The position numbers were made by a program, and so were the translations under genes. Positions 23,356-27,493 of a stretch of DNA of 64,000 nucleotides are shown one piece after another. Origin of the DNA: Pyruvatibacter mobilis (GTDB lineage Bacteria; Pseudomonadota; Alphaproteobacteria; CGMCC-115125). The stretch lies in assembly GCF_012848855.1 (NCBI RefSeq), contig NZ_CP051630.1, positions 971,501 through 1,035,500 on the forward strand, given 5' to 3'. The notes under the pieces were generated by a model. That model worked only from the letters and a program-made list of their open reading frames with translations. It was not told where the DNA came from and did no database searches. Every line of letters starts with the position of its first letter. Position 1 is the stretch's first letter.

Positions 23356-23832
23356 ATGAGTGACACGGCCTCCCAGAGTGCTTCCGGCACCGACCTGAAC
23401 GACGTCTACAACGCCCGCATTCTTGAGCTGGCGGGCAACATCCCGCGCATCGGCAAGCTGGAGGATGCGGCGGCATCGGCCAGTGCCATCTCCAAGATGT
23501 GCGGCTCTAAGGTGACGGTGCATCTGAAGATGGCGGATGGCCGCGTCAGCGATTTTGCCCACGAGGTCCATGCCTGCGCCCTGGGCCAGGCCTCCTCCTC
23601 GGTCATGGCCCGGCACGTCATCGGGGCCACCCGCGCCGACATCGAGCAGGTGCGTGACCAGATGCGCGCCATGCTGAAGGAAGAGGGCGACCCGCCCACC
23701 GGTGACTGGGCCGATCTCGAAGTCCTCCTCCCGGCCCGCGACTTCAAGAACCGCCACCAGTCGATCATGCTCACCTTCGAAGCAACCCTCGACGCCATCA
23801 GCCAGATCGAAGCTGCGGCTGACGAGGTCTGA
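23356..23832 (+). CDS. NifU/IscU-like iron-sulfur cluster scaffold protein, 158 aa
   Basis: IscU/SufU-like domain: DVYNARILELAGNIPRIGKL, SKMCGSKVTV (Cys49), VHACALGQAS (Cys74). The third ligand Cys of IscU is replaced: the aligned segment reads NRHQSIMLTFEA, with Ser136. A two-Cys variant of this kind may be a cluster carrier rather than a full scaffold. ATG 23356 follows the promoter region without a strong ribosome site. The copper operon promoter begins 22 bases after its stop. Confidence 0.87.
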   Translation: MSDTASQSASGTDLNDVYNARILELAGNIPRIGKLEDAAASASAISKMCGSKVTVHLKMADGRVSDFAHEVHACALGQASSSVMARHVIGATRADIEQVRDQMRAMLKEEGDPPTGDWADLEVLLPARDFKNRHQSIMLTFEATLDAISQIEAAADEV

Positions 23833-23854: not shown

Positions 23855-23885
23855 TTGACCTTCCCCTTGGGGGAAGGTGCAGGCT
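23855..23885 (+). promoter_or_regulatory. CueR-type copper-responsive promoter/operator
   Basis: A -35 TTGACC (23855-23860) and a poor -10 CAGGCT (23880-23885) are separated by 19 bases, the MerR-family hallmark. The spacer holds the perfect dyad ACCTTCCCC (23858-23866), TTG, GGGGAAGGT (23870-23878). This is almost the E. coli copA operator, where CueR distorts the overlong spacer when Cu(I) is bound. It drives the copper genes that follow. No cueR gene is in the window. Confidence 0.88.
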
Positions 23886-23891
23886 CTGCTC

Positions 23892-24257
23892 ATGCGCGCG
23901 CTGATGTCATGTCTGCTGAGTCTTCTGCTGGTCGCCATTCCGGCCGCGCCCTTGTGGGCGTCGCCCGAAATGACGGCAGCGCACATGCTCGGCTGTGACA
24001 TAACATCAAGTGCCATGGCTGGCGGGGCGCATCATGAAGCCCATGGCCAGACAAGCCCTGACCAGGGGGGCGATGAGCCGGCGAGCCGGTCCTGCCCCCT
24101 CGCAGCTTCCTGCTTCACAAGCCTCGCCGCGCCCACTGCGCCGTCAGTCGTGATGGGCAGCCTGACGCCTGTCCGGCTGTTGCCGCCATCTGCGCGGCTG
24201 CTTGGTCCTGCTGGCTTTGATCTCGATCCGCCGCCGCCCCGCCTGGGTGACGTCTGA
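23892..24257 (+). CDS. Small secreted His/Cys-containing protein, first gene of copper operon, 121 aa
   Basis: Signal peptide MRALMSCLLSLLLVAIPAAP with cut near LWAS, then a short mature part with potential metal ligands (MLGCD, GGAHHEAHGQ, SRSCPLAASCF) and a Pro-rich end. It resembles the small uncharacterised proteins that often lead cop operons. The predicted transcription start from the CueR-type promoter falls at or near the A of ATG 23892, so the mRNA would be leaderless. No family is assigned. Confidence 0.7.
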   Translation: MRALMSCLLSLLLVAIPAAPLWASPEMTAAHMLGCDITSSAMAGGAHHEAHGQTSPDQGGDEPASRSCPLAASCFTSLAAPTAPSVVMGSLTPVRLLPPSARLLGPAGFDLDPPPPRLGDV

Positions 24258-24382
24258 AGCCGCGTGAGACTGGCGCATGCGCGCCTGGCTTGCGCACCTC
24301 TCAGTTCATTCAGTTCGTCACGTGTTCGGCGATGCATATGCGCGTCGCAGTCGCGGGACGTCATCTATCGCGGAGATCAGAG

Positions 24383-24997
24383 ATGCCTGTCCGTATTCAC
24401 ACCATGACATCCATCCTTGCCGGGGCGGCCCTTGGCCTCGTGCTTGCCGTACCGGCAACAGCCGCCGGCAGCCATGCTCACGGCCACATGCAACCTGCCG
24501 AAGGGCACGCAGGCCACATGAAAAGCGGGGCGGCTGCCGGTCCCGATTCGGGCCCGATGTCCTTCGGCAAGCCCGGGGACCCGGAAGGCGCTGACCGTGT
24601 GGTCGACATTGTCATGGAGGACAATTTCTTCACGCCCGAAAGCATCAGCGTACGCGCCGGTGAGACGATCCGTTTCAACGTCGTCAACAAGGGCACGCTG
24701 GTGCACGAGTTCAACCTCGGCACCCCGGCCTACCATGCAGCCCACCAGAGCGAGATGATGATGATGCAGGAACATGGCGTCTTGATGGGTGATCACATCA
24801 ACCACGCCATGATGAACGCGCCCATGGGGGAGGACGGCCACATGATGAGCCATGACCACCCGAACAGTGTCCTGCTTGAACCGGGCAAGAGCGGGATCGT
24901 TACCTGGACCTTCACTTCCGGGGGCGACATCGAGTTCGCCTGCAACGTGCCCGGCCACTATGCCGCCGGCATGGTCGGCACGGTGGATGTGGAGTAG
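24383..24997 (+). CDS. Periplasmic type-1 copper cupredoxin, 204 aa
   Basis: Signal peptide (SILAGAALGLVLAVPATAAG), a His/Met-rich linker (HAHGHMQPAEGHAGHM), then a cupredoxin fold: DIVMEDNFFTPESISVRAGE, GTLVHEFNLG (His ligand) and the ligand loop ACNVPGHYAAGM (Cys, His, Met). A Met/His insert (SEMMMMQEHGVL, DGHMMSHDH) sits between the ligands and may bind Cu(I). GGAGA precedes ATG 24383. It lies 5 bases before copA and likely shuttles copper or electrons to it. Confidence 0.92.
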   Translation: MPVRIHTMTSILAGAALGLVLAVPATAAGSHAHGHMQPAEGHAGHMKSGAAAGPDSGPMSFGKPGDPEGADRVVDIVMEDNFFTPESISVRAGETIRFNVVNKGTLVHEFNLGTPAYHAAHQSEMMMMQEHGVLMGDHINHAMMNAPMGEDGHMMSHDHPNSVLLEPGKSGIVTWTFTSGGDIEFACNVPGHYAAGMVGTVDVE

Positions 24998-25002
24998 GCG
25001 CC

Positions 25003-26727
25003 ATGAAAATACGTGTACGGATATTTGCAGCACTTTTTGGCTGCGCGGTGGTCGCACTTGAAGGCGCTCTTCCCGCGGCGGCAGGCACCTATGACCTCAC
25101 GGTCGAGCCCGTCACCCTCGATGTGTCGGGGCGGGATGTGGACGGCTTTTCGATCAACGGTCAGGTCCCGGCGCCGCTATTGCGGTTTACCGAGGGCGAG
25201 GAACTCACCATCAACGTCACCAATACGCTTGAGGTGGATACCTCGATTCACTGGCATGGTTTCGTTCTGCCTTTTGACCAGGATGGCGTGCCGGGCATGA
25301 GTTTTGACGGCATCAAGCCTGGCGAAACCTTCACCTATCGTTTCAAGGCGCCGAAGGCAGGGACCTATTGGTATCACTCCCATTCCGGCCTGCAGGAAGG
25401 CGCAGGCATGTATGGCCCGATCATCATCGAGCCGACCGGACGTGAACCCTTCCGTTATGGCCGGGACCATGTGGTGGTGCTGTCTGACTGGCACGAGGAC
25501 AGTCCCATGCAGGTCTTCCGTAATCTCAAGCGGTCGCCGGATCACTACAATTTCATCCAGCGCACGGCAGGCGAGTTTTTCCGTCAGGCAGAGGAAGAAG
25601 GTCTCGGTGCTGCACTGGGTGACAGGCTGGACTGGGGCGAGATGCGGATGATGCCGTCCGACATTCAGGATGTTCAGGGATACACCTATCTGATGAACGG
25701 CCGGAACCCGTCGCAGAACTGGACGGGACTGTTCACTCCCGGGGAGCGCGTGCGCCTGCGTTTCATCAATGCATCGGCGATGTCGTTCTATGACATCCGC
25801 ATTCCCGGACTTGAAATGACCGTGGTGCAGGCGGATGCGAACAACGTCCGCCCGGTGACGGTGGACGAGTTCCGCATTGCGGTGGCTGAAACCTACGACG
25901 TGATCGTCCGTCCGCGTGAGGACAGGGCCTACACCATCTTCGCTGAAACCATGGCACGGGATGGTTTTGCCCGTGGCACGCTGGCGCCGCGTGACGGCAT
26001 GGAAGCTGCCGTGCCCGAGTTGCGTGACCCGCCGCGGCTGACTATGGCCGACATGGATCATGGGGCCATGCCAGGCATGACTCACGGGGACATGGACCAG
26101 GGAGAGATGGACCACGCTGCCATGGGACATGCGGGCCATGACATGGGTGCCATGGGCGGGGGAGATGATGATCCGTTCTATGCACCGGGATCAGGGCTTG
26201 AGCCTGACGCGGCCAATGGCGGCAAGTTCCTGTCCCTCGGAGATCTGCGGGCGCAGGACCCTCTCTATGAGGAGCGACCCTATGACCGGGAAATCCGGCT
26301 CCGGCTTACCGGCAACATGGAGCGCTATATCTGGTCGATCAACGACAAGAAACTTTCAGAGGCCGAACCACTGCGTCTGAAGTATGGGGAGCGTGTCCGT
26401 TTCACCTTCATCAATGAGACGATGATGGCGCATCCCATGCACCTGCATGGCATGTGGAAGATTGTTGATGTGGGGGCGGGCAAGTGGAACCCGCTCAAGC
26501 ATGTGCTGACGGTCGCCCCCAACACGACATTATCCGCCGATGTGGAGGTGGACGCACCGGGCCAGTGGGCGTTCCACTGCCACCTGATGTACCACATGGC
26601 TGCCGGCATGTTCCGCAAGGTCATCGTTGAGGGCGGCCCGGAGGATCTGGCGCAGGTCGATCCAGAGCTTGAGAAACTCTGGGGCATGGCCAATGCCGGA
26701 GATGCGCAGGCCGGAGGGCATCACTGA
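25003..26727 (+). CDS. copA: CopA-type periplasmic multicopper oxidase, 574 aa
   Basis: All four copper-binding blocks are present: HWHG (residues 83-86), HSHSG (~125), HPMHLHG (~477) and HCHLMYHMAAGM (~525). A Met/His-rich insert at residues 347-388 (MDHGAMPGMTHGDMDQG) is the typical copper-resistance region. It oxidises Cu(I) to Cu(II) in the periplasm. The signal peptide (KIRVRIFAALFGCAVVALEG) has no twin arginine, unlike most CopA proteins. Its stop overlaps the copB start by one base. Confidence 0.96.
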   Translation: MKIRVRIFAALFGCAVVALEGALPAAAGTYDLTVEPVTLDVSGRDVDGFSINGQVPAPLLRFTEGEELTINVTNTLEVDTSIHWHGFVLPFDQDGVPGMSFDGIKPGETFTYRFKAPKAGTYWYHSHSGLQEGAGMYGPIIIEPTGREPFRYGRDHVVVLSDWHEDSPMQVFRNLKRSPDHYNFIQRTAGEFFRQAEEEGLGAALGDRLDWGEMRMMPSDIQDVQGYTYLMNGRNPSQNWTGLFTPGERVRLRFINASAMSFYDIRIPGLEMTVVQADANNVRPVTVDEFRIAVAETYDVIVRPREDRAYTIFAETMARDGFARGTLAPRDGMEAAVPELRDPPRLTMADMDHGAMPGMTHGDMDQGEMDHAAMGHAGHDMGAMGGGDDDPFYAPGSGLEPDAANGGKFLSLGDLRAQDPLYEERPYDREIRLRLTGNMERYIWSINDKKLSEAEPLRLKYGERVRFTFINETMMAHPMHLHGMWKIVDVGAGKWNPLKHVLTVAPNTTLSADVEVDAPGQWAFHCHLMYHMAAGMFRKVIVEGGPEDLAQVDPELEKLWGMANAGDAQAGGHH

Positions 26728-27434
26728 TGGTGTGGTTCCTGGTCGCAGCTTCTTTTGCTGCATTGCTTGCCGTTCCTGCTTCGGCCGCCGAGATGGACAA
26801 TATGGTCCTGTCACTTGTCACGATTGAACGCCTCGAATACCGCGTTCAGGATGGCAACGATCACGGCTTCGTGGAAGGAGACCTCGTGATCGGCAATGAC
26901 GATCATAAGGCTGTCCTCGGTGTGGAAGCTGAACGCGATCTTGATGGCGGTACCTTCGAAAGTACGGAAGTGCACCTGCTCTATCGTCGTCCGGTCTCAC
27001 CCTTCTTTGATGTGCAGGCCGGTATCCGGCACGACCTGGCGCCGGACCCGGAAACTACCCATCTGGCCCTCGGCATTGCAGGGTTGATGCCGCAATGGGT
27101 GGAATTCGAGGGTACGGCTTACTTGTCCGATGACGGCGATATCGCGTTCCGCGCGGAAGCCGAGACCGAGCTCTATCTCACCCGGCGCATTTTCGCGCAG
27201 CCGATGATCGAGCTCGACCTGTTCGCAAGCGAGAATTCGGCCCGCGAGATCGGGGCGGGTTTCGGAAAGATCGAAACCGGCCTGCGGTTTCACTACGCGA
27301 TAACCGGGGGGCTCAGCCCCTATATCGGTGTCAATTACGAAGCGAAGCTCGGCGAGACTGCCGATTTTGCCCGGGCCGACGGTGAAGATCCTGGTGCGAC
27401 GGCATTTGTCGCCGGCGTCCGCTTCGCCTATTGA
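26727..27434 (+). CDS. copB: CopB copper-resistance outer-membrane protein, 235 aa
   Basis: Signal peptide, then the CopB beta-barrel: NDHGFVEGDLVIGNDDHKA, VLGVEAERDLDGGTFESTEV, LLYRRPVSPFFDVQAGIRHD, and the C-terminal GVRFAY ending in an aromatic residue as outer-membrane proteins do. It lacks the long Met/His-rich N-terminal region of plasmid CopB, so it is a short form. Translationally coupled to copA and last in the operon; a strong terminator follows. Confidence 0.94.
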   Translation: MVWFLVAASFAALLAVPASAAEMDNMVLSLVTIERLEYRVQDGNDHGFVEGDLVIGNDDHKAVLGVEAERDLDGGTFESTEVHLLYRRPVSPFFDVQAGIRHDLAPDPETTHLALGIAGLMPQWVEFEGTAYLSDDGDIAFRAEAETELYLTRRIFAQPMIELDLFASENSAREIGAGFGKIETGLRFHYAITGGLSPYIGVNYEAKLGETADFARADGEDPGATAFVAGVRFAY

Positions 27435-27446
27435 GGAACCTGGAAG

Positions 27447-27493
27447 CCGGGGCAGGGTTAACGACTGATTAATCCTGCCCCGGCTAGGTTTTT
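27447..27493 (+). terminator. Rho-independent terminator of copper operon
   Basis: CCGGGGCAGGGTTAA (27447-27461) pairs with TTAATCCTGCCCCGG (27469-27483) with only a G-T wobble, loop CGACTGA, followed by five T at 27489-27493. The TTAA-N7-TTAA inside it copies the CtrA consensus but is explained by the stem. Confidence 0.92.

Follow-up and report, generated by a model that had tools for sequence, protein, structure and literature searches.

A CueR-type promoter with a predicted leaderless start and a CutF-like leader at the head of a copper operon in Pyruvatibacter mobilis

The window, i.e. the whole stretch of 64,000 nucleotides of the Pyruvatibacter mobilis genome that was analysed, carries on its plus strand an operon in which a small secreted ORF (gene 1, positions 23892-24257) is followed by genes for a cupredoxin, CopA and CopB. 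This order had been read from the letters alone and was confirmed by profile matches, which also settled the identity of the third gene: the predicted 'copA' is present, its product being a CopA/PcoA-type multicopper oxidase (25003-26727; TIGR01480, 692 bits, above the cut-off of 479) and not a Cu-ATPase. Gene 2 (24383-24997), which starts after an intergenic stretch of 125 nt, encodes a CopI-like periplasmic cupredoxin matching PF00127 and scoring 190.5 bits with NF051440, below the cut-off of 280; gene 4 (26727-27434) encodes the outer-membrane copper resistance protein CopB (PF05275, 215 bits, above the cut-off of 27), and a terminator-like hairpin with a T run follows at 27445-27485. Upstream of the operon a SufU/NifU_N-like gene (23356-23832) ends 22 nt before the promoter; a gene of this kind also precedes the operon in the congeners G121 and G225, the contig of G311 ending too early to tell. 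The same genome holds a second, distant multicopper oxidase gene (L190) at G000:C1:609223-610437.

The promoter elements were all found where the sequence-only reading had placed them. The -35 hexamer TTGACC (23855-23860), identical in the congeners, and the weak -10 element CAGGCT (23880-23885), which reads CAT[CT][GT]T in the congeners, lie on both sides of a 19-nt spacer (23861-23879), inside which is set the CueR-type dyad ACCTTCCCC-TTG-GGGGAAGGT (23858-23878), with arms (23858-23866 and 23870-23878) that match perfectly over 9 bp around a centre of 3 nt. The claim that this is a CueR-type operator held up, the site being near-identical to enterobacterial ones and a CueR homologue being encoded in the genome. 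The E. coli CueR promoters of copA and cueO have the same arrangement of -35 and -10 elements with a 19-nt spacer round an ACCTTCC-GGAAGGT dyad; those genes have ordinary leaders with Shine-Dalgarno (SD) sites, whereas here the ATG stands at the predicted transcription start. A scan of the 3.33-Mb genome with the exact pattern TTGACCTTCCN7GGAAGGT gave one match, the gene 1 promoter, and none with a reversed control pattern; the sole site with one mismatch (C1:3055467) lies before a P-type ATPase gene, for which a 5' UTR of about 39 nt is predicted. At the level of sequence it is thus supported that a CueR-activated promoter drives the operon.

A serine at the metal site of CueR is the signature of a Cu(I)-type regulator. 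Both this metal-site, or selectivity, serine and the C-x7-C loop are retained in the homologue found at C1:510677-511054, whose product aligns over its full length with E. coli CueR (1q05/6ldi) and scores 144.6 bits, just under the NCBIfam cut-off of 147.4. Two MerR proteins of this genome are near CueR, the other one (C1:747498) being closer to CadR and having a cysteine at the selectivity position, and it is the C1:510677 homologue that probably regulates the gene 1 promoter. In a Kordiimonadales locus (L186:6921-7337) a MerR gene is divergent from the leader operon; its product is closest to the CadR/PMR type, with Cys where CueR has Ser, and the operator there is CueR-like.

Gene 1 encodes a probably exported protein of 121 aa, conserved in the congeners and in other families, whose N-terminus MRALMSCLLSLLLVAIPAAPLWA is typical for a Sec signal peptide (about residues 1-23; export at the other loci was judged by a hydrophobicity heuristic only). 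The Cys motif CPLAASC (C68 and C74; 24093-24113), identical in three congeners, is a probable Cu(I) site, and the conserved C-terminus holds the arrest-like motif DPPPPR (codons 24225-24242), the four prolines being residues 113-116 and the distance from the last Cys to PPP being 39 residues. With the additional C-terminal cysteines of G311 and L242 left out of account, the last motif Cys is separated from the start of the terminal proline run by 39-40 residues in 16 of 20 leaders and by 36-42 in all, with total lengths that range from 105 to 156. With NCBIfam CopL (NF033807) gene 1 reaches 24.6 bits (cut-off 40) and with Pfam DUF2946 (PF11162) 19.9 bits (cut-off 23.7); because both scores are below cut-off, we treat it as CutF-like and not as a formal member of DUF2946 or CopL. 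It has the features by which CutF-like proteins are recognised in PMC9973294, namely fewer than 150 aa, PP in the last 15 residues and a downstream gene on the same strand; that paper counts 5,334 CutF-like loci. A search of the leader protein against plasmids gave no match. Gene 1 is a probable copper-sensing regulatory leader, a role that the sequence-only reading had not seen in its small secreted protein. Leaders of another class, ending in LPPPE (L245-L248), also have CueR-type sites, at gaps of about 17-31 nt, and often, at the start or immediately ahead of it, ATGGAATGG or a like sequence that overlaps out of frame.

Six bases lie between CAGGCT and the ATG of gene 1 (23892-23894), the A of which is the seventh base past the -10 element. 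That transcription would begin at this very A, on a message devoid of a ribosome site, had been proposed earlier; it remains a prediction, strongly supported by comparison through the conservation of the spacing and the position of the promoter. Within -16 to -4 of the ATG no SD core exceeding 3 nt was found; this interval was scored throughout, since a wider one (-22 to -3) would mistake the operator's GGAAGG for an SD. A later ATG (23904) and a GTG (23877) were discarded as starts of gene 1, the congeners conserving the ATG at 23892 instead. Within a sample of 385 alphaproteobacterial genomes, the operator pattern with an ATG at exactly 13 nt occurs in the window genome, three congeners and G197, a genome of another family that shares its promoter and leader with Kordiimonadales bacterium IMCC3096 (L089); each of the five ATGs opens the gene for a small exported protein with DPPPPR at its end. 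The 13-nt spacing is under constraint, because the leader proteins of the congeners are only 33-39% identical to that of the window.

A wider sample of 94 regions upstream of CopA-type oxidases yielded about 50 CutF-like leaders, for which the starts outside the genus were picked by us from the in-frame starts compatible with a signal peptide. Nine leaders from six families (the window genome, three congeners and five other families) have a CueR-type site at 13 nt from the ATG, further leaders with the same C-terminal type have it at 9, 12 or 14 nt, and those with other C-termini and a CueR-type site have their ATG farther off, at 17-47 nt. The ATG also stands at the predicted start in some PPPR leaders under ordinary promoters with spacers of 17 to 19 nt (L280, L236, L232 and L242). 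Among 20 alphaproteobacterial leaders of the PPPR type, 16.8 have a best -35/-10 pair that stops 4-9 nt short of the ATG, 10% being expected from shuffled upstream sequence (binomial p 5e-13), and an SD core of at least 4 nt is found in 4 of the 20, as compared with 19 of the 20 genes directly downstream. The leaderless start thus seems to track the leader class more than CueR, because PPPR leaders under ordinary promoters share the position and the leaders mostly have no SD. It does not hold as a general rule that a CueR promoter gives a leaderless message, since most of the other CueR-type targets have leaders, as does the Cu-ATPase gene with some 39 nt of predicted 5' UTR. Leaderless initiation of gene 1 itself is a well supported prediction. 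Such messages are not rare in alphaproteobacteria, amounting to 7% in Methylorubrum (PMC9320726) and to 119 in Zymomonas (PMC7566282), and those mapped in C. metallidurans include that of czcI2 (PMC7563307), the relatives of which fall in a CutF-like cluster of PMC9973294.

At its 3' end, gene 1 is predicted to pair with the SD region of gene 2. The pairing stretch of the leader (24219-24252) contributes GATCTCGAT (24219-24227) to the minimum-energy fold and about 24238-24250 to the best local duplex, and the sequestered region (24361-24378), whose SD GCGGAG (24370-24375) is conserved in the congeners, has a mean unpaired probability of 0.12 when free and a higher one with a ribosome masked at PPPP. 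When the leader end and the intergenic region were folded in silico, the SD was almost fully paired with the last codons of the leader in four congeners (unpaired 0.00-0.12), and synonymous recoding of the leader end lowered the pairing at the window locus from 0.89 to 0.29 on average. Across 18 species, the leader end pairs with its own SD region at -14.3 kcal/mol and with those of other species at -10.1, a difference of 4.3 that none of 20,000 permutations attained, in a test that is conservative because the cross pairs of related species resemble own pairs. Control windows farther upstream gave no signal in this duplex test, and in a sliding window the signal peaks sharply on the last codons and the stop (centres -10 to -2). 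Matched changes were observed in L233 (TCCTCGCG with CGCGAGGA), in L242 (TCCTCGA with TCGAGGA) and, across the stop codon, in L234 (GCCTCTGATCGG with CCGATCAGAGG). The same covariation was found in a set of 28 loci of the CopL family, most of them not alphaproteobacterial (own -13.3, cross -10.5; 0 of 10,000 permutations; controls 0.48 and 0.92). Closure of the gene 2 SD by base-pairing with the leader end is therefore supported by the modelled folds together with cross-species covariation. In the CopL-family loci (L285-L314) a leader SD was seen in 1 of 28 and promoter position does not clearly coincide with the ATG, which makes short 5' UTRs lacking an SD likely there.

With the nucleotides that a ribosome would cover at the PPP codons masked, the SD became more accessible (mean 0.33, as against 0.19 unmasked; p 0.009), whereas masking 60 nt upstream had no effect; in G121 and G225 accessibility was hardly altered by masking, and in the Kordiimonadales genome G197 the SD showed no pairing with the leader end. 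Taken as a whole, the fold of the intergenic region of the window is no more stable than shuffles (z 0.42). The pairing signal thus shows only when SD pairing is set against cross-species pairs, folding of the whole region against shuffles having given none. Hairpins after the stop, seen by eye, were stable beyond shuffles in Kordiimonadales only.

From the sequence, its conservation and the covariation of the pairing, all of which were observed in this analysis, we consider it likely that two copper switches are stacked at this locus, a CueR-type promoter and a leaderless exported leader whose copper-dependent stall would unmask the cupredoxin gene. As the site and the homologue suggest, a rise of cytoplasmic Cu(I) would lead the CueR-type regulator, probably that of C1:510677, to switch on the promoter with the 19-nt spacer, giving a message that would begin at the A of the ATG at 23892 and on which ribosomes would load with no SD. 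With no translation or with normal termination, the last codons and the stop of the leader would pair with the cupredoxin SD and keep the downstream genes low. By analogy with R. capsulatus CutF, from which the copper binding, the pause and the direction of control are all inferred, the emerging chain would bind periplasmic copper at the Cys motif, 39 residues before PPPPR, and the ribosome would then presumably pause at PPPPR/stop near the leader end. A ribosome so placed would cover the anti-SD, the SD would open, and cupredoxin, CopA and CopB would be made. It could be speculated, and this is speculation pure and simple, that the leader has no SD of its own because such a sequence would compete for the anti-SD at the leader end.

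The weakness of the -10 element speaks against this model, and several alternatives have to be weighed. The message could be other than truly leaderless, with a main start from a few to tens of bases upstream, set by another promoter or due to transcription that runs on from the SufU-like gene; gene 1 would then be translated with no SD or by coupling. Read-through could give a leadered message and is possible since a mere 22 nt separate the end of that gene, which is conserved at this place in the two congeners checked, from the promoter; in Z. mobilis a leadered transcript is also present for about half of the leaderless units (PMC7566282). We nevertheless find this reading unlikely, given the exact 13-nt spacing in nine SD-less leaders of six families whose upstream sequences are unrelated. 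A different MerR-type regulator, e.g. the CadR-like C1:747498, might drive the promoter upon a divalent metal, as two MerR homologues of this genome match CueR and the equivalent promoter of Kordiimonadales has a divergent CadR-like MerR; such a regulator seems rather improbable for an operator of CueR type that is near-identical to enterobacterial sites, in a genome where the C1:510677 protein retains the Ser and the C-x7-C of CueR, and ahead of copper-specific genes.

The leader itself also admits other readings. Copper could relieve an arrest, with Rho-dependent termination between genes 1 and 2 and the leader serving as a high-copper brake or a timing device, as in B. pertussis CruR, a protein of the same wider family for which this mode of action is described (PMC9426467); the intergenic distance of 125 nt is nearer to the 162 of CruR than to the 40 of CutF. 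This logic is nonetheless doubtful, as the detoxification genes downstream should rise with copper, like those of CutF and CopL, and the covarying SD pairing points to control of translation initiation. Gene 1 might, on the other hand, encode nothing more than a periplasmic protein that binds copper, and its SD pairing be a coincidence; its signal peptide, its Cys and His residues and its copper-gene neighbours would suit such a role, which we hold to be very unlikely, in that conservation is confined to the Cys motif, the PPPR terminus and their spacing of 39 residues, with divergence elsewhere, the pairing at the leader stop codon is species-specific, and CutF showed no complementation in trans (PMC9973294).

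The stacked-switch model has its closest counterpart in CutF of the R. capsulatus cutFOG operon (PMC9973294, PMC8456105), likewise a small leader with a Cys motif and a C-terminal proline motif, Sec-exported in that case and probably so here, encoded first in a copper oxidase operon, with RNA structure shielding the SD of the gene that follows. They differ in that the anti-SD lies here within the last codons and the stop of the leader itself, gene 2 is a cupredoxin gene, the cysteines are spaced as CX5C and not as CX3C, and the Cys-to-Pro distance is 39 and not 45, the latter having been linked to the span of ribosome tunnel and translocon (PMC9973294). Moreover, the promoter is here of CueR type and leaderless, whereas cutF expression is reported as not Cu-regulated; the CutF papers put the shielding structure between the genes, with no cross-species test of pairing by the leader end. 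CopL of the Xanthomonas/Stenotrophomonas copLAB operon is also encoded directly upstream of copA-copB and acts in cis, and CopL-family loci have the same leader-end/SD covariation, with RPPI in place of PPPR at the C-terminus and no clear leaderless promoter. Bordetella CruR, encoded by a DUF2946 uORF (PMC9426467), is likewise a copper-responsive nascent leader that heads an operon, but it lowers a TonB-dependent transporter operon with copper through Rho, and its signal sequence is dispensable. Arrest leaders of the SecM/VemP type are similar in that a nascent chain, while being exported, halts its ribosome and so frees the SD of the following gene, the signal being export capacity there and presumably copper here.

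CutF, CopL and CruR indicate that nascent exported proteins can sense copper, and what our study addresses is the generality of the RNA switch. A mechanism of this class has been described before; within the literature searched, in which no paper joining CueR with leaderless starts was found, what is new is the fusion to a leaderless start, the constant spacing and the anti-SD rule that applies across species. We lean, somewhat less firmly than for the model at this locus, towards the view that copper leaders of a class widespread in alphaproteobacteria each form one compact device, in which a metal-regulated promoter would be fused to a leaderless start, the Cys motif held 39-40 residues from PPPR, and the arrest and stop codons used a second time as a covarying anti-SD, so that cytoplasmic CueR and the nascent exported chain would sense copper in series with no 5' UTR. 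Two copper sensors would thus be linked in one minimal module, and the fusion of a CueR promoter to a leaderless start is a reason to study leaderless initiation under metal stress. A ruler formed by ribosome and translocon is suggested by the constant distance of 39 residues, and species-specific pairing at the leader stop codon offers a simple rule for locating the anti-SD. CueR-type sites with an ATG at 13-14 nt were also seen before MerR-family regulator or Cu-ATPase-like genes (L072, L085, L090, L098, L106 and L113) of Bacillota, actinobacteria, alphaproteobacteria, Bdellovibrionaceae and Luteimonas, which suggests that leaderless genes under MerR promoters may exist elsewhere too.
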